DNA from: Candidatus Zipacnadia bacterium
Lineage (GTDB): Bacteria > Armatimonadota > Zipacnadia > Zipacnadales > JABUFB01
DNA length: 40,336 bases
Assembly (NCBI GenBank): GCA_029821745.1
Contig: JALGSS010000003.1
Coordinates: 1 to 40,336 of the forward strand
Direction: 5' to 3'
Notes under the pieces: model-generated
Told to the model about the DNA's origin: nothing
Seen by the model: the letters and a program-made list of their open reading frames with translations, nothing else
The model's database searches: none
Made by a program: the position numbers and the translations under genes
Part shown: positions 1 through 33,796 of the stretch, piece by piece
How positions within the stretch are numbered: position 1 is the stretch's first letter
How the letters are laid out: each line of letters opens with the position of its first letter

Positions 1-1052
1 TCACGTTCAGGCGTGAGGAAGAGCGGGTCGGCGTGCTGAAGCGTGATCTCTACGAGCTGCACGGGCACGGACTTCTTCAGGAAGTCGTCGTGGGAGTCCT
101 CTTGGGCGAGGGTCACCAGCTTGGCCTTGGCCAACGCCGCTTCGAGCTGCTCACGGAAGGCGGACCCATCGCAGCCGACCTCGCGCCAGAGCGCCAGCGC
201 GTCCCCCTCGCCAGCGTCAATGGTGAACTCCAGCAGCTCCGGCGGGTCGCTCAGGTCAGCCTTCACGACCGCCTTCGACACCGTCTCAGGCAGCTTGGCG
301 TCCGGCTCGCGCAGGATGTAGAGCCGTTCGCAAGGCGGGAGGCAGCTGACCCATTCGGGCTTGAAGATGTTCTGGCCGGGGGCGCCCGCCGCCGTGAAGC
401 CGCAGTGCCAGAGAACTTGGCAGTCTGACTCGCCCTCAACGATGATGATCGGTCGTTGGGCCTCGGGCAGCCGGTCGCGACCGTAGAGGTAAGACCTCTC
501 GCCACCGATGTCCGGCTTGCCCCACCATCGCCTGCTTCCGTGCCGCATCCGCGCCCGCAGGTTCTGACCGTCCATGTCGCGGTAGAAGATGAGAACGTTG
601 CCCCCAGCACCATCGCACACGCCCCACTCCTGCAGCTCTTCCTTGGGCAGCAGCACGTGCGCCGCATAATCATCGAGGGTGTAGGGTGCCCAGGGCTCTT
701 CAGGCTTTGTCTGCTTCTCGGCTCTGGGCCTTGTCGCGGCGACCTCGATGCCCAAGTCGCAGGCCAGGGCGAGGAGTGCCTCGCGGAAGCTGGGCATCGA
801 TTTCCGGCGCTGGCAGAAATCGATGATGTCACCGTAGGTGCCGCAACCAAAGCAGTAGAACCCGCCGTCGGGGTACACGGTGAAGCTTGGAGTTCTCTCG
901 TCGTGGAATGGGCACACGCCCACAAGCCTGTCGCCCTGCGTCTTCAGTTCACCGTCGTACCCGGACCGCCCGTAGGCATCCCTGGGACTGTCCTCAGCGG
1001 CCCGCTTGACTTGGTCCTTGAGTTCATCGAGTGTAGGCTTGGTGTGCTCCAT
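1..1052 (-). CDS. DNA primase-like protein (CHC2 zinc finger + TOPRIM-like), 3' end beyond window
   Basis: Manual reverse-strand translation from ATG at 1052 is open to the left edge: MEHTKPTLDELKDQV...VCPFHDERTPSFTVYPDGGFYCFGCGTYGDIIDFCQ...PIIIVEGESDCQVLWHCGFTAAGAPG... It contains a canonical CHC2 primase zinc finger and a TOPRIM-like 'IIVEGESDC' motif. Absent from the ORF track because no stop lies inside the window. Confidence 0.87.
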   Translation of the reverse strand, partial: MEHTKPTLDELKDQVKRAAEDSPRDAYGRSGYDGELKTQGDRLVGVCPFHDERTPSFTVYPDGGFYCFGCGTYGDIIDFCQRRKSMPSFREALLALACDLGIEVAATRPRAEKQTKPEEPWAPYTLDDYAAHVLLPKEELQEWGVCDGAGGNVLIFYRDMDGQNLRARMRHGSRRWWGKPDIGGERSYLYGRDRLPEAQRPIIIVEGESDCQVLWHCGFTAAGAPGQNIFKPEWVSCLPPCERLYILREPDAKLPETVSKAVVKADLSDPPELLEFTIDAGEGDALALWREVGCDGSAFREQLEAALAKAKLVTLAQEDSHDDFLKKSVPVQLVEITLQHADPLFLTPER

Positions 1053-1606: not shown

Positions 1607-2626
1607 TCAGTAGACGGCGACTTGCTTCTCACCCAACGAGAATTCGTAGGCGCTGCCTTCGCCGTGCCTGCCACGACGCGTGAGGATGGTGTCGCGCGCC
1701 TCCTGAGGGTCAAGCCCGGCCAGCTCAGCCGCTTCGGCCAGCTTCCTCCGGATCTCGGCAATCACAGCCCGGACAGAGCTGAAGTCGTAGAGGTCGCCAT
1801 CCCAAGCGGCCTCGTTCAGATCAAAGTAGGTCAGCGGGCGACAGGGCTGAGTGGCGAATGCGATGAGCACCTTCCGCTGCACTGGGGTTAGGATCACCTG
1901 CTGCCTAGCGTATGCCACTGTCAGGCCGCCCTCGGCGATGACCAGCAGGGGCTCGGTCGGGGTCTCGTCTTCGCTTGTTGCGGGAAGGGCCTCCTCAAGC
2001 GGCTTGCGGTCTAGGCCCAACTCGCCCCCGTTCACTGAGAGCGAGCGCACGAGGGATAGAGTCGCGACGGTGGCGGGAAGCCAGTCGGCCTGCTCCCGCA
2101 GAGCAGGCAGTAGGACGAGAGAGCGTACGCACTTCTGCAACCGTGCACAGTCGGCGAGTTCGTCAGTGTCGGCGGTGAGCCCACAGGCCAAGAAGACATC
2201 AGCTTGTCGCCCCGCGATGTCCGACCGCCCCAACCACCACAACCTGTCGCGGACGCATTCCTCGATCTCTTGGTCTCTGCCCAAGAGTCCGGCGACGACA
2301 CGGGCCAGCCCCTCAGCTGTCGCCTGCCACTGTCTGAGCCGGGCCAGTGACACCTCGACCCGGCCGATCTCGTCGCGCTCCTGGCAGACCACGTAGGCGC
2401 TCGTGTGCCCCGGTTCATCGTCGAGGAAGACTACCTCTTCCCGGCAGGCGTCATCGCACCCGTCGCAGGTAACAGAATGCGCGTACCCGACTTCCTGGAG
2501 CAGCCCGCAGGCCTCCAGAGCCGCGACCTCGCCGGGGTCTGCTTCGGCCAGGTCGTCATACCCGAAAAGTGCGCTGGACCGTTCGCTTAGGCAGCTCAGA
2601 ACCGTCTTCAGCGCGTCCTGAGACAT
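1607..2626 (-). CDS. hypothetical protein with N-terminal Cys cluster and C-terminal winged-helix-like domain
   Basis: 339 aa; 'CDGCDDACREEVVFLDDEPG' Cys cluster; C-terminus 'LTPVQRKVLIAFATQPCRPLTYFDLNEAAWDGDLYDFSSVRAVIAEIRRKL...ILTRRGRHGEGSAYEF' looks like an OmpR/Trans_reg_C-type winged helix. Confidence 0.75.
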   Translation of the reverse strand: MSQDALKTVLSCLSERSSALFGYDDLAEADPGEVAALEACGLLQEVGYAHSVTCDGCDDACREEVVFLDDEPGHTSAYVVCQERDEIGRVEVSLARLRQWQATAEGLARVVAGLLGRDQEIEECVRDRLWWLGRSDIAGRQADVFLACGLTADTDELADCARLQKCVRSLVLLPALREQADWLPATVATLSLVRSLSVNGGELGLDRKPLEEALPATSEDETPTEPLLVIAEGGLTVAYARQQVILTPVQRKVLIAFATQPCRPLTYFDLNEAAWDGDLYDFSSVRAVIAEIRRKLAEAAELAGLDPQEARDTILTRRGRHGEGSAYEFSLGEKQVAVY

Positions 2627-3782
2627 CGATACCCCACCGTTTCAGTAGTTGTCTCGCGACCTCGTGTGTTGTCTCATGCTTCAGGCTGCAACTGTTGGGG
2701 TAACTGACGTCGAAGGTCAGTGTGCGTGCCCTACCACCGCTCTCGGGGCGGAACCTCAGCCGCAGGGAGGCCCTGGTGACCCGGACCGCATCGCGCGGGG
2801 TGCGGGTGCTCTTCAGGACCTCATCGAGCAGTCCATAGAGCACACGGTCTCCTGCTCCGGCGTCGACCTCGATGGTGATCCGTGGTCGCCCCGCTCCCAC
2901 CAGTTCGAGCCGGAGCAGCTTGACGCGCACTTCTCCCACGCCGTCCTCAGGTCTGATCTCGAACGGGAAGTTGGGGGAGAGGAGGTCGTCGAGCTGGTAG
3001 ATAACTTCGGTTCGGTCCGCCAGATCGGGTTCTACTCCGAGTACCACTGCGCAGAAGATCCCCTGCAGGCTCTCAAGAACCTTCTTGACGCCGCTGACGC
3101 TGGTGTCGAGCGACCCGTCCGCACGGTCGTACACAAACACGATCTCGAATGCCGGGCGCTGGGTCTCCAGTTGCAGCTCGTGGCTATCGTCGTAGACCAG
3201 TCGCCCCTCCGCGTAGTCCTCCGGGTACACGAACCAGTAGAGGCGCTCGCCGCGCGCGTAGTGGTCCGCCTGGCAGCCCCGACCACGCCCTTCCGTCTTC
3301 AGGTAGTAATCGGAGATGGCGGCCGCCAGTCGGTCCTTCGTGTCATCGTCCGTGCCCGGTTCGACGGTAGGCAGGTCGCCGCGTTTACGCCAGCGCAGCC
3401 GGTCGGCATGGCGGAATCGCTTGGCGACCTTGAACACTTCCGGGTGATCGAGGAAGGCCCAAAAGGCCCGCTCCGTGTGGCTTCGCATCTTCTCGAAGGG
3501 TTCTGCTAGGGGAACCTGATGGTGCGGGTCTCGCCCTTCGTCAATGAGTGTCTGCGTCCCGCCCGCGTTGGCCATCTCGTGAATCTCTTGGAAGTCACAC
3601 CCGATCTGGACCCGGACCCTCTCTGACGCGGCCTCGATGGCCTTGTAGATCGGCTCAACCTGTGTCTCGGTCAACTGCTGCCAGCCAATGCCATCGTCTA
3701 GGCCGAGGCCCTCCAGATAGCGTTGCAGGAGGTCGTTGGGCGCGCGCCTGAGGAACGACTTCAACGAGTACTGACCGGCCAT
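2556..3782 (-). CDS. uncharacterised protein (~408 aa), first gene of the minus-strand operon
   Basis: Long ORF; likely start at internal Met (MAGQYSLKSFLRRAPNDLLQRYLEG...) at 3782 rather than 3986. Its 3' end overlaps the next gene by 71 bp in another frame. Confidence 0.72.
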   Translation of the reverse strand: MAGQYSLKSFLRRAPNDLLQRYLEGLGLDDGIGWQQLTETQVEPIYKAIEAASERVRVQIGCDFQEIHEMANAGGTQTLIDEGRDPHHQVPLAEPFEKMRSHTERAFWAFLDHPEVFKVAKRFRHADRLRWRKRGDLPTVEPGTDDDTKDRLAAAISDYYLKTEGRGRGCQADHYARGERLYWFVYPEDYAEGRLVYDDSHELQLETQRPAFEIVFVYDRADGSLDTSVSGVKKVLESLQGIFCAVVLGVEPDLADRTEVIYQLDDLLSPNFPFEIRPEDGVGEVRVKLLRLELVGAGRPRITIEVDAGAGDRVLYGLLDEVLKSTRTPRDAVRVTRASLRLRFRPESGGRARTLTFDVSYPNSCSLKHETTHEVARQLLKRWGIDVSGRAEDGSELPKRTVQRTFRV

Positions 3783-4009
3783 CCTGACCACTCCCCACTC
3801 ATTGTTGCTTTTCAGTATATCCGGCACTGCTTTGTGCCGCAACTGAGGGACGAGGATTCCAGAGTAGCTGCGGAGAAACAGAGTTCTATGGGAAGTGCAA
3901 GAGAGGGCAGTTGCGTGGCGAAGATATGCTTCGGTGCGGCGGGTGTTGGCAGCGAACGCCTCCCCCGATCGCCGTTGGCGCAGCACTCAAGGGATGGAGT
4001 GAGGGCGGC

Positions 4010-5572
4010 TTGAGCAAGGACGGAGCGACGCAGGGGAATGGCGCCAACCTCGGATTTGAGAAGGAGATGTGGGAGGCGGCCAACAGGTTGCGGGGGCATA
4101 TGGATGCCTCCGAGTACAAGCATGTCGTGCTTGGGCTCATCTTCCTGAAATACATCTCCGATGCGTTCGAGGAACTGCACCAGAAGCTTGCCTCAAGCGA
4201 GTTCGCTGACCCCGAGGACGCAGACGAGTACCTCGCTGAACGTGTCTTCTGGGTCCCAAAGGACGCACGCTGGAAGGTCATCCGGAATCGTGCGAAGATG
4301 CCCGAGATCGGCAAGGTCATCGACGACGCGATGATCGCCATCGAGCGCGAGAACTCCCCGCTCAAGGGCGTGCTCCCCAAGGACTACGGGCGGCCTGATC
4401 TGGATAAGACTCAACTGGGCGAGTTGGTGGACCTGGTCAGCCAGATTGGTTTCGGAGGTCAGGACGCCAAGGCGAAGGACGTCCTCGGCCAAGTGTACCA
4501 ATACTTCCTGGGCCAGTTCGCGGCGGCGGAGGGCAAGAAGGGCGGGGAGTTCTTCACTGCTCAGTGTGTGGTGCGACTGCTCGTCGAGATGATTGAGCCC
4601 TACGGGGGCCGAGTATATGACCCCTGTTGTGGAGCGGGCGGCATGTTTGTTCAGAGCGCTAAGTTCGTGAAGGAGCACGGCGGGCAGATCGGGAGGGTCT
4701 CCATCTTCGGTCAGGAGTCCAACCCCACAACCTGGCGGTTGGCGCGGATGAACCTCGCCATCCGCGGGCTGGACGCGAACCTGGGACCGCACCACGGCGA
4801 CAGCTTCCGCAATGACCTGCACAAGGACCTGAAGGCAGACTTCATCCTCGCCAATCCCCCGTTCAACATGTCGGCGTGGGGGCAGGAGGCGCTGAAGGAC
4901 GATGTGCGCTGGAAGTATGGGCTGCCGCCGGCGAGCAACGCCAACTTCGCCTGGATGCAGCACATGGTCCACCACTTGTCCCCGAAGGGTGTTGCGGGGA
5001 TCGTGCTGGCCAATGGCTCGATGTCATCGCAGCAGGGAGGAGAAGGGCAGATACGGCAGGCTCTCATCGAAGGGGACCTGGTAGACTGCATGGTGGCGCT
5101 CCCGGGGCAGCTGTTCTACACCACCGGCATACCAGTGTGCCTGTGGTTCTTGGCGAAAGACAAGCGGGACTCTGGAAAGCGCGACCGGCGCGGGGAGACC
5201 TTGTTCATTGACGCGCGGCAGATGGGCTCGATGATCGACCGCGTCCATCGGGACCTGACCGGTGAGGACGTGGAACATATCGCCCACACCTACCACACTT
5301 GGCGAGGGGAGCCCGACGCGGGCGAATACGAGGACGTGCCTGGCTTCTGCAAGGGGGCCACGACCGAGGAGATCGCCGGGCATGGCTACGTCCTCACACC
5401 GGGGCGATACGTCGGGGCGGCAGAAGTCGAAGACGATGGTGAGCCGTTCGACGCGAAGATGCAGAGGCTCACCACTACTCTCGCAGAGCAGTTGGCCGAG
5501 GGGGAGCGTCTCGCTGAGGCTATCCGGGAGAACCTCACCGGCTTAGGGTTCCCGATGGCGGGGGTGTCGTGA
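4010..5572 (+). CDS. hsdM: Type I restriction-modification system DNA methyltransferase subunit M
   Basis: HsdM N-domain '[39 protein letters not shown]'; SAM motif '[15 protein letters not shown]'; catalytic 'NPPFN'. Probable TTG start at 4010 (ORF open from 3911). Confidence 0.96.
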
Positions 5573-5705: not shown

Positions 5706-7001
5706 GTGAGGCACACCACCTTCGGCTGGCAGTATGTGCGTGTGGGCGATTTGGTCGCCCGAGGGGCGCTCCTCATAGGCGACGGATACCGTGTCACGAA
5801 CGCGGAGCTGGCTTCAACTGGCACACCGTTTGTCCGAGGCGGCGACATCGGGGACGGTGATATCTGTACCGACGTTGCCGATCATATCGCTGAGGAGTTC
5901 TCTGATCGTCTCACAAGCAAGTTGACGATGCCGGGGGACAGCGCCTTCATAGCCAAGGGCACGGTCGGTCGGGTCGGGCACCTGAGGGCCAGACAACCGC
6001 AGGTTGTCTTCTCTCCTCAGGTGTGTTGGTGGCGTGTCCTGGACCACCGAGTGCTCGTTCCCGGCTTCGTGTACTATCTGCTGAGGGGACATGAGTTCCA
6101 GGCCAATTTGAATGCGGTCAAGACACACGGGGCGATGGCGGCGGACTACGTCAGCATGACTGACCAGTACGAGTTCAGATTGCCGATCCCACCTATCGGA
6201 GCGCAGCGAGCAATTGCCCACGTGTTAGGTTCGCTCGACGACAAGATCGATCTGAACCGGCGGATGAATGAGACGCTGGAGGAGATGGCACGAGCGATCT
6301 TCAAGTCGTGGTTTGTGGACTTCGACCCGGTCCGCGCGAAGATGGAGGGCCGCCAGCCCGTCGGCATGGACGCCGACACCGCCGCCCTCTTCCCCGATGA
6401 GTTTGAGGACTCCGAACTCGGGGAGATACCGAAGGGGTGGCGGCTCCGGCCACTCGACGAGGTGGCCGACTTCCTGAACGGCCTGGCCTGCCAGAAGTAC
6501 CCACCAGAAGATGGCGACTCATTGCCTGTGATCAAGATAAGAGAGCTCCGGCAGGGGTTCACGGAGAACAGCGACCGGGCGACCACGGCCGTTGACGAAG
6601 AGTACATCATCGAGGATGGTGATCTGCTGTTCTCCTGGTCGGGGAGTCTTGAGGTGGTCATGTGGTGTCGTGGCCGTGGTGTCCTCAACCAACACCTCTT
6701 TAAGGTGACGTCTCCCGACTACCCGAAGTGGTTCTACCACCAATGGCTCCTCCATCACCTGCCGGAGTTCCGGCACATCGCTTCCGGGAAGGCCACGACG
6801 ATGGGCCACATCAAGCGCGGCCACCTGACCGAAGCGCTAGTCGTCGTCCCGCCGGCAGACGTGATCGCCGCGGCGGACGCCGTCATGGCCCCACTGTTGG
6901 GCCTGACCATCGCCAACGAACTGGAGTGCCGCACACTCGCAGAGACCCGCGACACGCTTCTGCCCAAGCTGATGTCGGGGGAACTGCGGGTGCCTGAGTA
7001 G
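5706..7001 (+). CDS. hsdS: Type I restriction-modification system specificity subunit S
   Basis: Two TRD-like halves; conserved linker 'QRAIAHVLGSLDDKIDLNRRMNETLEEMARAIFKSWFVDFDPVRAKMEG' and 'TRDTLLPKLMSGELRV' C-terminus. GTG start with G-rich SD. Confidence 0.95.
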   Translation: MRHTTFGWQYVRVGDLVARGALLIGDGYRVTNAELASTGTPFVRGGDIGDGDICTDVADHIAEEFSDRLTSKLTMPGDSAFIAKGTVGRVGHLRARQPQVVFSPQVCWWRVLDHRVLVPGFVYYLLRGHEFQANLNAVKTHGAMAADYVSMTDQYEFRLPIPPIGAQRAIAHVLGSLDDKIDLNRRMNETLEEMARAIFKSWFVDFDPVRAKMEGRQPVGMDADTAALFPDEFEDSELGEIPKGWRLRPLDEVADFLNGLACQKYPPEDGDSLPVIKIRELRQGFTENSDRATTAVDEEYIIEDGDLLFSWSGSLEVVMWCRGRGVLNQHLFKVTSPDYPKWFYHQWLLHHLPEFRHIASGKATTMGHIKRGHLTEALVVVPPADVIAAADAVMAPLLGLTIANELECRTLAETRDTLLPKLMSGELRVPE

Positions 7002-7047
7002 GGGTGCCCACACACTCAATGCGTAGTAGTGAGAGGAGATGTTAGTC

Positions 7048-7254
7048 ATGAAGGTATCGATCAAGAAGTTCGATGTGGACATGGAAGTCAAGAACAAGGG
7101 CATCGAGATGGAGATACGCAAACCCAATGGGGACTTCATGGGTGATGTCGTTCTGACGAAGACCAAGCTCATTTGGTGCAAGGGACAAACCGGCCGACAG
7201 AACGGCGAGAGCGTCACTTGGGAGAAGTTCATTGAGTGGATGGAGACCCGCTGA
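7048..7254 (+). CDS. small hypothetical protein (~68 aa) inside the R-M operon
   Basis: MKVSIKKFDVDMEVKNKGIEMEIRKPNGDFMGDVVLTKTKLIWCKGQTGRQNGESVTWEKFIEWMETR; preceded by GAGAGGAG; co-directional. Confidence 0.75.
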   Translation: MKVSIKKFDVDMEVKNKGIEMEIRKPNGDFMGDVVLTKTKLIWCKGQTGRQNGESVTWEKFIEWMETR

Positions 7255-7324
7255 TCGGTAGGTTCCACATGAGTGATCGCACTGGTGCACGCGGTGACTG
7301 CCTCCACCGGAAGACACCGGGAGA

Positions 7325-7347
7325 TGCTGAGGCTACACGCCTCAGCA
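7325..7347 (+). promoter_or_regulatory. intergenic hairpin upstream of the DUF262 gene
   Basis: TGCTGAGGC-tacac-GCCTCAGCA: perfect 9-bp stem, 5-nt loop, 28 nt before the ATG at 7376. Confidence 0.55.
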
Positions 7348-7375
7348 AACGCCTGCTTGGCATGGGACAAAAGGT

Positions 7376-9130
7376 ATGAGTGGAACACTGTTCAAAGAAG
7401 TCAGCTACTCCCTCTCTAAACTGCTTGAGGATATCGAGATGGGGGAGATTGGTCTTCCAGACATCCAGCGCCCCTTCGTCTGGAAGAACCCGAAGGTGCG
7501 CGACCTCTTCGATTCCATGTATAAGGGCTTCCCCGTTGGCTATCTGTTGTTCTGGGCTAACGGGCTGCCGAACGGCCACCGCCAGGTGGGGGCAGAAACC
7601 AAGCAGAAGGTCGCGCGCCTGCTTATCGTGGATGGGCAGCAACGGCTGACTTCGCTCTTCGCAGTCCTCAAAGGGCAAGAGGTAGTCAGGGAGGACTACA
7701 GCAGAGAGCGCATACATATAGCCTTCCGCCCCCGTGATGCTACCTTTGAGGTGGCTGACGCCGCAGTCCGGAAGGACCCGGAGTTCATATCAGACATCAG
7801 TGAACTGTGGTCCGGGGAAGTACCGCGAAACCGCTTCGTCAAGGAGTTCATCACGAAGCTCCGAGACAGCAGAGAGGTCACCGAAGACGAGGAGGATTTC
7901 CTCTGCGAACAGATCGATCAGTTGTATGACCTGCAGAGCTACCCATTCACCGCACTGGAGCTTTCACCAACCGTGAATGAGGAGGACGTGGCGGAGGTCT
8001 TCGTTCGGATCAACAGCAGGGGCACACCCCTCAACCAAGCGGACTTCATCCTTACGCTGATGTCGGTCTTCTGGGACGAGGGGCGCGCTGAGATGGAGCA
8101 GTTCTGCCGTCTGGCACGCACCCCGAGCACGGGCGCTCCATCGCCATTCAACTACCACCTCCAACCCGACCCTGACCAATTGCTGCGCGTGAGCATCGCC
8201 CTGGGGTTCCGCCGCGCACGCCTGCAACACGCCTACAACGTGCTCCGCGGGAAGGACCTGGCAACCGGAGAGTTCAGCGAGGACCGGCGGGATGAGCAGT
8301 TCCAGATCCTGGGAGAGACACAGTCCTACGTTCTGGATCTCCAGAATTGGCACGACTTCTTCAAGGCGCTTCTGCGTGCTGGTTACCGGCAGAAGTCAAT
8401 GATCACCTCCAGCCTGAACGTGCTCTATACGTACGCCCTCTATCTGATAGGCAAGCGCGACTTTGGGGTCGACCACCATACGTTGCGGAATGTCATCGCC
8501 CGATGGTACTTCATGTCTGCTCTCACCGGTCGATACACCGGGTCTCCTGAAAGCGTCATGGAGGAGGACCTGGCACGCCTGCGGGACATTAGGGATGCCG
8601 ACGGCTTCGTCGAGCTCCTGGATGGGCTCGTGAAGGCCGCAATGCCCGATGACTACTGGACAATCACGTTGCCCTCTGACATGGAGACTTCGTCAGCGCG
8701 CACTCCGCCGCTCTTCGCCTACTATGCCTCACTCAATCTGCTTGGTGCGCGGGTGCTCTTCTCCAAACTGAAGGTCGCTGAACTCCTGGCGCCGGGCACA
8801 CAAGCCAAGAAGTCGGCACTGGAGAGGCATCACCTGTTCCCACGGAACTACCTCAAGACACTGGGGATCGACGAGACCCGGGAAATCAACCAGATAGCCA
8901 ACTTCGCCTTGGTGGAGTGGATGGACAACATCGACGTTTCGGACAGCCCACCGAGTGAATACTACCCGCAATACGCACAGCGCTACTCGGCAGATCAACT
9001 TTCCGAGATGTGCTACTGGCATGCCCTCCCGGAGGGATGGGAGCATATGGAGTACGCGGACTTCCTGGCGGCCCGGAAGAGCGCAATGGCTGGCGTAATC
9101 AGGGATGGGTTCCGGAAGCTGTGGGAGTAG
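7376..9130 (+). CDS. DUF262 domain protein with C-terminal HNH/DUF1524-like region (GmrSD-like)
   Basis: 'GEIGLPDIQRPFVWKNPKVRDLFDSMYKGFPVGYLLFW...LLIVDGQQRLTSLFAV...VFVRINSRGTPLNQADF' (DUF262) and 'ALERHHLFPRNYL...INQIANFALVEWMDN' (His-Me/HNH-like). Confidence 0.9.
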   Translation: MSGTLFKEVSYSLSKLLEDIEMGEIGLPDIQRPFVWKNPKVRDLFDSMYKGFPVGYLLFWANGLPNGHRQVGAETKQKVARLLIVDGQQRLTSLFAVLKGQEVVREDYSRERIHIAFRPRDATFEVADAAVRKDPEFISDISELWSGEVPRNRFVKEFITKLRDSREVTEDEEDFLCEQIDQLYDLQSYPFTALELSPTVNEEDVAEVFVRINSRGTPLNQADFILTLMSVFWDEGRAEMEQFCRLARTPSTGAPSPFNYHLQPDPDQLLRVSIALGFRRARLQHAYNVLRGKDLATGEFSEDRRDEQFQILGETQSYVLDLQNWHDFFKALLRAGYRQKSMITSSLNVLYTYALYLIGKRDFGVDHHTLRNVIARWYFMSALTGRYTGSPESVMEEDLARLRDIRDADGFVELLDGLVKAAMPDDYWTITLPSDMETSSARTPPLFAYYASLNLLGARVLFSKLKVAELLAPGTQAKKSALERHHLFPRNYLKTLGIDETREINQIANFALVEWMDNIDVSDSPPSEYYPQYAQRYSADQLSEMCYWHALPEGWEHMEYADFLAARKSAMAGVIRDGFRKLWE

Positions 9131-9144
9131 GCTCATAGGGGGCC

Positions 9145-12100
9145 ATGTCGATGAGTGTCGGGGCAATCGACGAAGCTGCTCTCGAAGCGAGTGCCTTGCA
9201 GTGGTTCATGCAGGCAGGCTACGCAGTGCGCTTTGGTCCAGACATCGCCCCTGGCGAACCGGGGGCGGCGCGGGAGCGCCATGACGAGGCGTTCCTGCCA
9301 GACCGTCTGCGCGACGCGTTGGCGGCCCTCAACCCCGACATCCCAGAAGAAGCCCTCCACGATGCCTACCGCAAGATCACCCTTGCCCCGAGCCCAAGCC
9401 TGATCGAGACCAACCATCAGTTCCACCAGATGCTGGTTGATGGCGTTGACGTCCGATACCGCAACGCAGATGGCCGCGACGTCTTCGAGAAGGTGCGAGT
9501 GCTGGACTTCGACGACCCGGACGCCAACGACTGGCTGGTCGTCAACCAGTTCTCAGTCGTTGAGGACAACTGCCACCGCCGGGCGGACGTCGTCGTCCTC
9601 GTGAACGGGCTGCCCCTCGCCGTCCTCGAGCTGAAGAGCCCGACATCGGAGACAGCCACCGCTCGGTCCGGCTACGATCAGCTCCAGACCTACCGCAACG
9701 AGATCCCGGCGCTCTTCCATCACAACGAGGTGCTGGTCGCTTCTGACGGGATGGCTTCACGGGCCGGGACGCTAACCGGAAGCTGGGAGTGGTTCCTCCC
9801 CTGGAAGACTGTTGAGGGAGACGTCATCTCGCCGCCCGGCATGTCCTCGCTGGAGGTCCTGATTCGGGGCATCTTCGATAAGCGGCGCTTCCTTGACCTG
9901 ATCCGGCACTTCATAGTGTTCGAGTCCGACGGCGCTGAGTACCAGAAGAAGATGGCGCTATACCATCAGTACCACGCGGTGAACAAGGCGGTCGAGAGCG
10001 TGGTCGCCGCCTCGTCGGCGGAGGGCGACGGCAAGGCCGGCGTCGTCTGGCACACGCAGGGCTCAGGCAAGAGTCTGAGCATGGTCTTTCTAGCGGGCAA
10101 GCTGATCCAGCGCGAGGAGATGGCGAACCCAACGCTGGTGGTAATCACCGACCGCATAGACCTGGACAGCCAGCTATTCAGCGTCTTCTCAGGATGCAGG
10201 GAACTACTGCGCCAGCGGCCGGAGCAGGCCCAGGACCGGGAGCACCTGAGGGATCTGCTGGAGGTCCCCTCTGGCGGTGTCATCTTCACCACGCTGCAGA
10301 AGTTCCTCGCTGAGCCGGGCGCCGATTACCCGTGCCTTTCGGACCGCAGGAACGTTCTGGTCATCTGCGACGAGGCCCACCGCAGCCACTATGATTTCGT
10401 GGACGGGCTTGCGCGCAACATGAGAGACGCGCTGCCAAACGCTTCCTTCATCGCCTTTACCGGGACGCCGCTGGAGTTGGTCGGCAAACACACAGTGCAG
10501 GTCTTCGGGGACTACCTGGACGTCTACAACATCCGCCAAGCGGTCGAGGACGAGGCCACGGTCCCGATCTACTACGAGGGCCGGCTGATCCCGCTGGACC
10601 TGTCGCCTGAGGAGGAGCCGCTCCTTGACGCGGAGTTCGACGACATAACCGAGGACGAGGAAGACGACGAGCGGGTGAGGCTCAGGAACAAGTGGTCGCG
10701 GCTGGAGCAGCTGGTGGGCGCCGAAGACCGCGTCGAGAGACTGGCCGCGGACCTGGTGGAGCACTTCGAGCAGCGCCTCGACGTGATAGAAGGTAAGGGC
10801 ATGGTCGTCTGCATGAGCAGGCGCATCTGCGTTGACCTCTACAACGAGATCACCAAGCTGCGGCCCGACTGGCACTCCGAAGACGATGCCGAGGGGTTCG
10901 TCAAGGTCGTGATGACGGGCTCGGCCAGCGATCCTGTGGACTGGCAGCAGCACATCCGCAACAAGGCCCGGCGAGAGGACTTGGCCAAGCGCTTCAAGGA
11001 CCCGGAGAGCACGTTCCGGCTGGCTATTGTGCGTGACATGTGGCTGACCGGATTCGACGCGCCGCCTCTGCACACCATGTACGTTGACAAGCCCATGCAG
11101 GGCCACGGCCTGATGCAGACCATCGCGCGCGTCAACCGCGTCTACCCGGGCAAGCCCGGCGGTCTCATCGTTGACTACCTCGGGATCGCCGCGAAGCTCA
11201 AGCAGGCGCTGGACTACTACTCCTCCGGCGACCGCGAAGCTGCGGGGATCGACCAGTCGGAGGCAGTCGCGCTGCTGTTGGAGGAACTGGAGATCGTGCG
11301 GGGCCTCTTGCATGGCTTCGACTACTCGGCAGCAGTCAGCGCGGACCTGGCGACGATGCTGCCGGTCGCAGAGGCAGCGGTCGAGCACGTCCTGGGGCAG
11401 CACGTCGCCGAGGGAGAGGAGCCGCTTCGGAAGAGATTCCTGCGTCACGTCAGGGGGGTGTCGGAGGCTTTCGCTCTGGCTGTCCCGGACGAGCGCGCCC
11501 TCGACGTGCGCGACGAAGTGCGCTTTCTGCAACTCGTGCGCGCAGGGACTATCAAGGTGACGAAGTCTGAGGGGACACCGGAGGAGGATATCGAGGCCGC
11601 CATCCAGCAGATGCTCTCTCGCGCGGTGGTCTCGGGGGAAGTCATCGATATCTTTTCCGAGGCCGGTCTGGAGCGACCGGATATCTCCGTGCTGTCGGAC
11701 GAGTTCCTGCGAGAAGTCCAGGGCATGGAGCACAAGAACGTCGCTGCCGAGGCGCTGCGGAAGCTGCTGGAAGGGCGCATCCGTATCCACGAGCGCAAGA
11801 ACCCGCTGCAGGCGCGGTCCTTCGCCGAGATGCTCAAGGAGGCCATGCAGCGCTACCACAACCGGGCCATCGAAGCGGCGCAGGTCATCGAGGAGCTGCT
11901 TGCTCTGGCCCATGCAATCAGGGACGCCGAGCACCGCGGGGAGGGAATGGGCCTCACCGATGACGAACTGGCCTTCTACGACGCCCTGGCAGAAAACCAG
12001 AGCGCCGTGGAAGTAATGGGCGACGAAGAGCTAATGGTTATCGCGCGGGAGTTGCTTGTGGTGGTCAGAGAGAACGCCACCATCGACTGGGCTCAGCGCG

Positions 12101-12240
12101 AGGCGGTCCGGGCGAAACTGAGGGTGATATGCAAGCGCATCCTCCGCAAGCATGGCTACCCCCCCGACCTGCAGCAGTCGGCCACCGAAACCGTCCTCGA
12201 GCAAGCCGAGCTGCTGTGTGAGGGTTGGGTGGGGGAGTAG
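9145..12240 (+). CDS. hsdR: Type I restriction-modification system endonuclease subunit R
   Basis: N-terminal nuclease region '[17 protein letters not shown]'; helicase motifs '[19 protein letters not shown]', '[12 protein letters not shown]', '[10 protein letters not shown]'; 14 bp after the DUF262 stop. Confidence 0.96.
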
Positions 12241-12833: not shown

Positions 12834-12964
12834 AGTGAATGGCACCATGATGTGGGAACGGCTCATAGTTCGATTGCTGGCGCAGGGATTGGGGAGAAGC
12901 CAGGAGAGCTGATTGGGGGATGGTTGTGCATTCAGCGCCAGTAGCAGGATATCCGTTCTAGAGG

Positions 12965-13058
12965 CTGAACTATCTCACTGCAGGTGGCACTAAGATGGGG
13001 GCAAGACCAGCCGGCCAAAGTACCACATAGAGACTGGTATCACTTGTGGGGGCAGGCA
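12965..13058 (+). repeat. composite repeat A1-B1 (IS-end-like)
   Basis: ctgaactatctcactgcaggtggcactaagatgggggcaagaccag + ggccaaagtaccacatagagactggtatcacttgtgggggcaggca; same A-B order and spacing at 27354-27450. Confidence 0.75.
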
Positions 13059-27322: not shown

Positions 27323-27353
27323 CTGCGATCAGGGCAGGAATTCTGCCTCGCAG

Positions 27354-27450
27354 GATGAACACTCCCATTGCGGGTGGCACTAAGACGGGGGCAAGACCAA
27401 GAGGATGCGAGCACCACATAGAGACTGGTATCGTTCGTGGGGGCAGGTCA
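27354..27450 (+). repeat. composite repeat A2-B2
   Basis: gatgaacactcccattgcgggtggcactaagacgggggcaagaccaag ... accacatagagactggtatcgttcgtgggggcaggtca. Confidence 0.75.
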
Positions 27451-27567
27451 GACCAGGCCAAACGGCTCAAAGAGTTGGAGAACGAAAACGCGCAACTCAA
27501 GAAGCTCGTTGCCAACCAAGCTCTGGACCTCGCGATTCTGAAAGAGACTGTTTCGGGAAATTACTGA
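27451..27567 (+). pseudogene. IS3-family OrfA C-terminal fragment (leucine-zipper part)
   Basis: 'QAKRLKELENENAQLKKLVANQALDLAILKETVSGNY*' in the frame of ORF 27151-27567. Confidence 0.8.
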
Positions 27568-28466
27568 GCCCGGACAAGCTCCGGGCGGCGGTGGTATATG
27601 TACGTGAGGTGATGGGCGAGGACGTGGTCTCAGAGAGACGCGCCTGCAAAGTGTTGGGGCAGCCGCGCTCCACACAGCGACGCAAACGGGTCGTGCCCGA
27701 TCGCGAGGTGCGACTGCGGGCGCGGATCATAGAGTTGGCGACGCAGTATGGTCGCTATGGCTACCGGCGGATAACGGCCAAACTAAAGAGCGAGGGCTGG
27801 CGGGTCAACCACAAGCACGTTGAGCGCATCTGGCGCGAAGAGGGCCTGAAAGTGCCTCAGAAGCAGCCTAAGCGTCGTCGGCTGTGGCTCAACGACGGCT
27901 CCTGCGTACGGCTCAGGCCACGGCATCCCGGGCATGTGTGGAGTCACGACTTCGTGCTGCACCGCACACACGACGGCCGAGCTTTCCGTCTGCTGACGAT
28001 CATCGACGAGTACACGCGCGAGTGTCTGGTGATCGTGGTGGACAGGAAGCTCAGCAGCGACCAAGTGCTGGAGCAGCTGACGCATCTGTTTGCCCAGCGG
28101 GGCGCTCCGGGCCACATTCGCTCGGACAACGGCTCGGAGTTCACCGCCAAGAAGGTGCGTCAGTGGCTGGCCGATCTGAGTGTGAAGACGCTCTTTATCG
28201 AGCCCGGCAGTCCGTGGGAGAATGGCTACATAGAGTCATTCAACGGCAAGCTGCGCGACGAACTGCTTGACGGCGAGATCTTCGACACGCTGTTTGAGGC
28301 GCAGGTGCTTGTGGAGCGGTGGCGAAGGTACTACAACACGGTGAGGCCGCACAGCTCGTTGGGCTATCGCCCCCCGGCACCCGAGGCGCGACAGCCCTGG
28401 GCTTCGGGCCTCGCTCCGCTCGGCCCTGCGCCCAGGGCTGTGTTGGTCGGCCAAAGTACCACATAG
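27561..28466 (+). CDS. IS3-family transposase OrfB (DDE/rve integrase core)
   Basis: 'YGYRRITAKLKSEGWRVNHKHVERIWREEGLKV', 'HDFVLHRTHDGRAFRLLTIIDEYTRECL', 'IRSDNGSEF', 'SPWENGYIESFNGKLRDELL', 'YNTVRPHSSLGYRPP'; -1 frame relative to orfA. No upstream ATG in frame after the orfA stop. Confidence 0.93.
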   Translation, partial: LLSPDKLRAAVVYVREVMGEDVVSERRACKVLGQPRSTQRRKRVVPDREVRLRARIIELATQYGRYGYRRITAKLKSEGWRVNHKHVERIWREEGLKVPQKQPKRRRLWLNDGSCVRLRPRHPGHVWSHDFVLHRTHDGRAFRLLTIIDEYTRECLVIVVDRKLSSDQVLEQLTHLFAQRGAPGHIRSDNGSEFTAKKVRQWLADLSVKTLFIEPGSPWENGYIESFNGKLRDELLDGEIFDTLFEAQVLVERWRRYYNTVRPHSSLGYRPPAPEARQPWASGLAPLGPAPRAVLVGQSTT

Positions 28467-28495
28467 AGACTGGTATCGTTCGTGGGGGCAGGTCA
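28449..28495 (+). repeat. repeat B3 = right end of the IS3 element
   Basis: ggccaaagtaccacatagagactggtatcgttcgtgggggcaggtca. Confidence 0.85.
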
Positions 28496-28728
28496 CACTC
28501 AAGGCCGAGAAGTGGGATGACGCGCGCAAGTATCTCGCAGAAGCCTGCGAGTGCATCCCGGATCAACGCGCAGCTTGGCTGGCGCTCGGACACGCTTGCG
28601 CACGCGGCGGGTACTGCGAGGAGGCCGTCAACGTCTACAATGTCTACCTCGCGGCGTGGCCGGAGGCGGCCGACGCTCGCGAAGTAGAAGCCTTCTTGCT
28701 GGAACTCCAGGAGCGCCTGGACCCGTGA
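28495..28728 (+). pseudogene. C-terminal fragment of a TPR-repeat protein, 5' end lost at the IS boundary
   Basis: Manual translation with no start: TLKAEKWDDARKYLAEACECIPDQRAAWLALGHACARGGYCEEAVNVYNVYLAAWPEAADAREVEAFLLELQERLDP*. Not in the ORF track. Confidence 0.8.
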
Positions 28729-28836: not shown

Positions 28837-28881
28837 CCAAAGTACCGCATAGGGAGTGGTAGCGTTCGTGGGGGCAGGTCA
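28837..28881 (+). repeat. repeat B4 (solo IS-end-like)
   Basis: ccaaagtaccgcatagggagtggtagcgttcgtgggggcaggtca. Confidence 0.8.
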
Positions 28882-29037
28882 CTCAGCCACCCGTTTGTGT
28901 TCTTCCTCGCGCTCTACGGGACGGAGGGCTCGATACGGGTGATGAACCTCAACTACGCCGACCCCGAGGCGCTGCGGGTGGTCATCTCGACCGACGCGGA
29001 CGGCGCGGGCTGGCAGGACATGCCGATGGAGAGATGC
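28882..29037 (+). pseudogene. possible C-terminal gene fragment following B4
   Basis: Starts exactly at the B4 edge: 'SHPFVFFLALYGTEGSIRVMNLNYADPEALRVVISTDADGAGWQDMPMER'. No in-frame stop before the next gene, so the assignment is tentative. Confidence 0.3.
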
Positions 29038-33018: not shown

Positions 33019-33108
33019 CAGCCTTGTAATGGGCCCTTCGACTGCCAGCAAGACCGCCTCGTTGAGAGCGATGACTGTGAATGACACGTAGCGAAGGAGA
33101 TGATCTCG

Positions 33109-33714
33109 ATGAGTAGCGCAAAGCGAAGCACGTCACGGAGTGTTCTCGACCAGCTTGAGGTAACACAGCGGCAAGGAAGGGACCTGAATACGCTCCCGCA
33201 GATGATGAAGCCGTGTGTGGCGGCAATGCTCGAGGAGGGCGTGCTGCCTGGCTACGAACCTGATCCGAACACGGCGTGCTTCATGGTGGCGAGCGAGATG
33301 AAGCGTCTGGGCAAGACCCAGGATGAGGCAGGCAAAGCCTGCCATGAGTGGCAAGCGGAACACGGTGACGTGCTGGGATTCGGCGAGGTCGAGAGGACCG
33401 TCCGCTCCGCCTACGGAGGAGAATGCCAGTACGGGTGTGGCACCGAGAGCCGGCTCTACAACTCAGACTACTGCATGGGCCATGACAAGTGCCCCTACTA
33501 CAAGCAGCTTGGGGCTAGCCGGAAGCCGCGTGATCAGGACTACTTCGACTACGGATGGCCCGAGCGCCTCAACCCCGCAGCCCGCAATGTGTACGTGGCC
33601 ATTTGCGAGCTGGATAGGCGGGCGCAACGCCCCGGTGCGAAGCATTGCGTCACCTACCGTCGGCTCCACAAGTTGAGCGGCGTGAGTACTGGGCACATGA
33701 AGAAGCCGCTCCAA
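33109..33714 (+). pseudogene. primase-C-terminal (PriCT)-like / replication protein, 3'-truncated by repeat B5
   Basis: 'LPGYEPDPNTACFMVASEMKRLGKTQDEAGKACHEWQAEHG...FGEVERTVRSAYGG' followed by a Cys cluster 'CQYGCGTESRLYNSDYCMGHDKCPYY'; SD AAGGAGA. Its stop (TGA 33715-33717) is the terminal TGA of B5. Confidence 0.65.
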
Positions 33715-33761
33715 TGACCTGCCCCCACGAACGATACCAGTCTCTATGTGGTACTTTGGCC
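33715..33761 (-). repeat. repeat B5 (inverted orientation)
   Basis: tgacctgcccccacgaacgataccagtctctatgtggtactttggcc = reverse complement of B3. Confidence 0.85.
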
Positions 33762-33796
33762 GGCTTGGCCTTGCCCTCGTCCAGCAGGACGACCAG

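Follow-up and report, generated by a model that had tools for sequence, protein, structure and literature searches.

Two overlapping genes, P1 and P2, in the 40,336-nucleotide stretch of DNA analysed here (the window, which is the entire contig) are a real, obligate, and modular gene pair of mobile elements that is most likely a control switch. Specifically, our working hypothesis, to which we give slightly less than an even chance, is that P1-P2 serves a mobile element as a two-protein control switch that binds DNA and may also set the divergent defence operon. The initial annotation of the window had described a gene of ~408 aa followed by one of 339 aa with a 71-bp out-of-frame overlap, both divergent from hsdM; these coordinates were confirmed, and we additionally identified a primase gene and a conserved small ORF behind P2 that had been missed. 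The features of the locus are as follows.

3..1052, minus strand: primase gene with a CHC2 zinc finger (PF01807, E=9e-20), cut by the contig end
1155..1361, minus strand: small ORF of 68 aa, kept between P2 and the primase gene in the related elements L024, L027, and L033
1607..2626, minus strand: P2, 339 aa (ATG at 2626, stop at 1607)
2556..2626, minus strand: P1/P2 overlap, 71 nt, out of frame (the starts are 1156 nt apart, which leaves a remainder of 1 on division by 3)
2556..3782, minus strand: P1, 408 aa (ATG at 3782, stop at 2556)
3783..4009: divergent intergenic region between P1 and hsdM, 227 bp
3814..3842, minus strand: candidate P1 promoter TTGCGG-17-TATACT, found by eye inside the block 3810-3849 and not reported by a promoter scanner
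3822..3839: dyad CGGCAC-N6-GTGCCG, between the -35 and -10 elements, with its arms kept in L032 (GGCAC/GTGCC)
4010..5572, plus strand: HsdM (PF02384, E=3e-107), with which the divergent type I restriction operon begins (cargo)
5706..7001, plus strand: HsdS (cargo)
7039-7254: ORF of 71 aa preceding the GmrSD_N gene
7376..9130, plus strand: GmrSD_N (DUF262) protein, within the restriction operon between hsdS and hsdR (cargo)
9151..12240, plus strand: HsdR (cargo)

Both P1 and P2 score as coding in coding-potential scoring, and orthologues are 35-51% identical in P1 and 30-43% identical in the P2 body. Because relatives keep the protein sequence as well as the arrangement, we conclude that P1 and P2 are real genes. 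With stop codons counted, four further pairs (L024, L027, L028, L029) also overlap by 71 nt, and L050 and L025 by 74 or 80 nt; the 71-nt overlap is more than chance. Because its length is kept across related loci, P1 and P2 are likely translationally coupled. In prophage relatives, the two genes usually overlap by 4 nt or abut.

The pairing of the two genes is close to invariant. Among 48 P1 genes of at least 300 aa from two phyla, taken from neighbourhoods chosen by P1 match so that a P2 without P1 elsewhere would escape this count, P2 was downstream of or fused to P1 in 46 (37 full-length P2, five partial P2, and four fusions of 597-735 aa). The partial P2s are explained by contig ends, a frameshift, and an insertion, and the two P1 genes lacking P2 (L051, L105) stop at contig edges; the recurrent pairing that the initial annotation had anticipated from a tabulation of neighbourhoods is, therefore, borne out. 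When ten element P2s were used to seed a P2 profile, all full-length P2 candidates (37/37) were recovered, and the profile's 12 other matches, out of 717 neighbouring genes, fell without exception at P1 loci, comprising the four fusions, the five partial P2s, and three loci (L092, L098, L099) that were fetched by P1 match and in which P1 went unreported by the simple gene caller. Based on the pairing counts and the profile matches, we conclude that P1-P2 is one obligate pair, and the fusions imply that the two proteins would form a complex. Consistently, in a P2 search across 101 relatives, full-length matches occurred only beside P1 and the remaining matches were confined to or strongest in the winged-helix part. 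Within the window's phylum, 17 of 292 genomes had P1, as did 34 of 399 genomes sampled from the phylum of a proteobacterial relative; tblastn at the sensitivities used detected no P1-P2 relatives in GenBank phages or plasmids.

P1 had been described as belonging to no recognised family. By profile match (E=1.7e-28, residues 7-385), it is a member of PHROG 37634 rather than merely similar to it, and 9/9 close P1 relatives match the same family. PHROG 37634 is a phage/prophage protein family with no assigned function and P1 has no Pfam, PADLOC, or PDB relative, so that the earlier description stands for function and domains but not for family membership; the coupling to P2 and the setting in defence elements are additions made here. 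P1 as a known defence protein or known domain was ruled out (PADLOC, Pfam), and neither P1 nor P2 matched any family among the known anti-phage defence profiles (PADLOC 2023, 0 families at E<=1). Neither P1 nor any of 37 relatives had a HATPase (GHKL) match at E<=0.1, and no enzyme-like conserved polar cluster was seen in P1. AlphaFold models, generated with two sequences as input, were of low confidence for both proteins (mean pLDDT 61.6 for P1 and 47.9 for P2); the low-confidence P1 model suggests a helical N-terminal half and a beta-rich C-terminal half. Fold searches with both models gave no significant match to a known fold. Thus, a match to a characterised family, which the initial annotation had named as evidence against its proposal, was not found.

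P2 consists of an N-terminal Cys4 domain, a middle domain with an LWxLG motif, and a C-terminal OmpR-type winged helix (residues ~228-339). The Cys cluster and winged helix noted in the initial annotation correspond to C54, C57, C61, and C81 and to a Trans_reg_C match at residues 242-299 (E=1.1e-5; 25.8 bits, just below the Pfam cut-off of 26.2), which reaches E=1.6e-8 in the best P2 relative; response-regulator matches in the PDB had E-values of 0.012 to 0.98. Trans_reg_C is the only recurring Pfam domain among 32 P2 relatives, and the C-terminal HTH of the relatives in L001 and L095 is different or unclear. The four cysteines are kept in nearly all class I-body P2s of defence elements (L024 lacks C61) and are missing from most prophage P2s, suggesting that the presumed zinc site is a trait of the element branch. 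With the exception of the winged helix, P2 as a known defence protein or known domain was ruled out (PADLOC, Pfam). PDB matches of P2 to designed armadillo repeats contained no significant stretch, look compositional, and were rejected.

The primase gene and the conserved small ORF behind P2 place P1-P2 on a mobile element. In related loci, the order is recombinase, small genes, primase, small ORF, P2, and P1, followed by a defence operon on the opposite side; no recombinase is seen in the window, where it would lie past the contig end. Judged from its gene content, the pair in the window is part of an integrative element with hsdM-hsdS-GmrSD_N-hsdR as cargo. For a second primase-like match in the genome (contig C667), the neighbours point to the housekeeping DnaG. 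A small protein with the motif VVREYIG...GEWRRRR (L024 13487-13798; also in L027, L028, L033, and L126-L129) marks a wider group of primase/recombinase elements and occurs in 20/292 genomes of the window's phylum. Elsewhere in the window, a family of 40-96 bp repeats with 80-100% identity is present at 12962-13056, 27352-27450, 28448-28498, 28837-28882, and 33715-33781. An IS3-like transposase gene (27355-28466) is flanked by two copies, and the 12962-13056 copy, immediately past the restriction operon, is possibly a lone IS end close to the element's far boundary. An ORF at 33100-33717 that ends in a repeat copy resembles a fragment of a mobile-element replication protein and is possibly a remnant of another element.

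P1-P2 occurs in two settings, i.e. integrative elements with recombinase and primase, and prophages. In the integrative elements, type I restriction is divergent from P1 in the window, L024, L032, L001, and L097; in L024, two genes at 5928-8100 (356 and 370 aa) without Pfam or PADLOC match separate P1 from hsdM/hsdS. Other loci have a divergent type III-like restriction system (N6_N4_Mtase and ResIII helicase; L027), a DISARM DrmD/BrxHII-like helicase (L028), CRISPR type I-E (L033), or, for a very divergent P1, ZacABC (L057). On the same strand and upstream of the pair, type I restriction is found in L050 and L051 (in L051 by DNA similarity to hsdR) and type ISP in L095. In L025, L026, L029, L053, and L096, several of them with short flanks, none of the neighbours could be recognised as a known defence gene. 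In the prophages, neighbours include a serine recombinase with a DUF2924-type gene, and AAA_24, HTH_17, and helicase genes, and at about 22 loci P1 adjoins S24/LexA-like, XRE+M78, or WYL genes that are either divergent or co-oriented directly upstream; the DUF2924 and WYL genes are what we take them to be by recognition of their sequences and not by profile match. In L083 and L084 (alphaproteobacterial-type), RecA, UmuC/DinB, and S24 genes, labelled by local similarity only, flank the pair, hinting at a link to the damage response.

The expectation of a conserved two-gene cassette beside hsdMSR, therefore, holds, in that the pair recurs there and next to other defence operons. By contrast, the idea of a restriction-linked accessory does not, because the same pair occupies prophage immunity regions without a defence operon. 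Moreover, the association with defence is partly a property of the carrier element. Among elements with the same backbone marker, defence genes were present in 4/4 with P1-P2 and in 2/5 without it (L126, type III; L128, HsdS), and, at p=0.17 (Fisher), attribution of the association to P1-P2 itself is unproven.

Comparison of the window with its sister element L032, from another family within the same order, revealed how the locus is put together. Their DNA shares 77% identity across 1-1352 (primase, small ORF) and 3765-4009 (the P1/hsdM intergenic region), and does not align at this level between or beyond these blocks; the P1-P2 and restriction genes differ, with protein identities of 27% for P1, 28% for the P2 bodies, and 42% for the P2 winged helices. 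One OmpR-type head, at 35-51% identity, is common to the window, L026, L032, L033, and L031. The bodies joined to this head are of class I in the window and L026, of class II in L032 and L033 (with P1 proteins 24-27% identical to that of the window), and unrelated in L031. Conversely, P1 of L028 and L025 is 51% and 46% identical to that of the window, yet the P2 head is unrelated. These identity patterns show that P2 head and body have been exchanged separately. In L031, the slot of the pair (3613-5478) holds a gene for a 621-aa protein, divergent from a restriction-type methylase gene, with the same winged-helix head (46%) and an unrelated N-terminal part. Between the window and L032, the P2 head stayed together with the intergenic DNA, in which conservation peaks at 90-95% over 3810-3849; for the core made up of promoter and dyad, the value is about 93%. 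By conservation and position, the dyad in this block is a candidate operator only, since by our estimate about 0.6 dyads of this kind are expected by chance in 230 bp. An operator shared across the other head-sharing loci was rejected because the best 16-mer score was 33 compared to 32-35 in shuffled sequences.

P1-P2 is unrelated in sequence to the known controllers CapW/BrxR, CapH+CapP, and CapK+CapS, which are found repeatedly next to many immune operons and react to DNA damage (PMC13373217, PMC9122601, PMC9122588). The closest parallel, which we use as a working model for the mechanism, is CapK+CapS (EMBO J 2026, PMC13373217), also an adjacent gene pair in which one protein has a C-terminal winged helix and which lies beside diverse immune operons including restriction-modification. 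However, CapK is HTH-STAS-GHKL and CapS is STAS-wHTH with 184 aa (PMC13373217), whereas P1 and P2 are of other sizes, lack GHKL and STAS (no STAS match in P2 or 32 P2 relatives in Pfam), and P2 has a Cys4 domain and an OmpR-type head. CapH+CapP and ImmR+ImmA (XRE repressor and M78 peptidase) similarly exert two-protein control of an adjacent operon, and XRE+M78 pairs lie directly beside P1-P2 in prophages, but P1, P2, and their relatives have no Pfam match to XRE HTH or M78 peptidase. BrxR/CapW is a winged-helix regulator co-located with many defence systems (PMC9122601, PMC9122588) but is a single WYL protein, and no WYL match was found in P1, P2, or relatives (Pfam). Because P1-P2 fails the defining domain tests of these three systems, it is not a member of any of them, although it may work like them. 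RptR, a repressor tied to type I restriction operons that acts at their promoter, is described as a small regulator made of one protein, with TAGCTA as its palindromic site (PMC12255303), in contrast to the 339-aa P2 with its obligate partner. OmpR/PhoB-type response regulators share the C-terminal winged helix with P2, which lacks their receiver domain, as no receiver (phosphoacceptor) domain was matched in P2 (Pfam).

Several lines of evidence argue that P1-P2 is a control switch. P2 bears a DNA-binding head and heads are exchanged independently of the body; the intergenic DNA of the window and L032 was kept, with its peak at the promoter-like/dyad block, while the genes were replaced; the pair adjoins many unrelated defence operons, a pattern shared with known controllers (PMC13373217, PMC9122601); its place in prophages is the immunity region, next to S24, XRE+M78, or WYL genes; and P1-P2 fusions, translational coupling, and a P1 without an enzyme-like polar cluster point in the same direction. 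The earlier proposal of a defence or regulatory cassette is thus best supported for DNA binding and control, the pair being neither restriction-specific nor purely a defence accessory. We suggest that P2 would bind operator DNA via its exchangeable winged helix, and that P1, translated in coupled fashion off the same mRNA, would be the partner that P2 always requires and would probably receive the signal or mediate oligomerisation. For the window, we consider it probable that the pair binds the 227-bp intergenic region and thereby controls the promoter from which it is itself expressed, with the divergent hsdMSR operon as a possible second target; at other loci, other defence operons would be controlled by the same logic. 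The signal may be DNA damage, which is a guess from the prophage neighbours. Counting against a switch are the absence of an operator motif beyond the window and L032, the differing HTH in L001 and L095, the low-confidence P1 and P2 models without fold match, and the share of the carrier element in the defence association.

The main doubt is that a prophage repressor is already adjacent, such that P1-P2 could be a controlled effector or an early gene and not the controller. The lambda RexA-RexB module also consists of two genes beside a prophage repressor, and RexB is a membrane protein. In the same manner, P1-P2 could be an immunity effector (superinfection exclusion or abortive infection) that is repressor-controlled in prophages and an extra defence module in elements, a reading that we consider unlikely but the most serious competitor. 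P1 often lies directly behind the S24, XRE+M78, or WYL genes, in L106, L107, and L093 with a start-stop overlap with the repressor-type gene as if in one operon, and in other settings WYL and XRE+peptidase pairs act as controllers of immune operons (PMC13373217). Also, P1-P2 clusters with defence genes in elements, and the allele in the slot was replaced en bloc between the window and L032, as expected under arms-race selection. Nevertheless, no catalytic, membrane, or known toxin domain was found, P1, P2, and relatives had no Pfam match to a RexA-RexB-type family, a DNA-binding head that can be exchanged would be more usual in a regulator, and in the defence elements P1-P2 has no controller gene beside it.

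Less probable still is that P1-P2 is an early element factor (replication, excision, or early-gene activation), with P2 acting on an origin or early promoter and defence adjacency arising only from cargo insertion. In both settings, the pair is usually just upstream of and co-oriented with replication/recombination genes (primase in elements; HTH_17, ParB, AAA_24, and helicase in prophages), but the gap from P2 to the next gene is usually about 250-450 nt, the replication genes are not downstream in L102 and L103, and elements with primase and recombinase exist without P1-P2 (L126-L128, L135). An overlapping gene pair carried on mobile elements, with a DNA-binding partner with exchangeable heads, would also fit a toxin-antitoxin pair that stabilises the element, P2 being the autoregulating antitoxin; we regard this as very improbable, because in the four fusions toxin and antitoxin would share a single polypeptide, P1 and P2 are both large, and neither matches a toxin family.

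Returning to the control switch, the novelty of P1-P2 lies in its putative function, since none was previously assigned in anything found here. Somewhat more tentatively than for the switch itself, we propose that P1-P2 represents an undescribed two-protein controller family in which a DNA-binding head and a sensor body, both exchangeable, regulate the carried defence operon or the lysogeny region, in elements and prophages of at least two phyla. Little is known about how mobile elements turn their restriction, CRISPR, and other defence operons on and off, and the handful of controllers described so far came to light as genes recurring beside many different immune operons. P1-P2 has the same recurrence pattern with unrelated proteins and spans prophages as well as defence-carrying integrative elements, and with two genes and a 227-bp shared promoter region it is a compact, testable unit.
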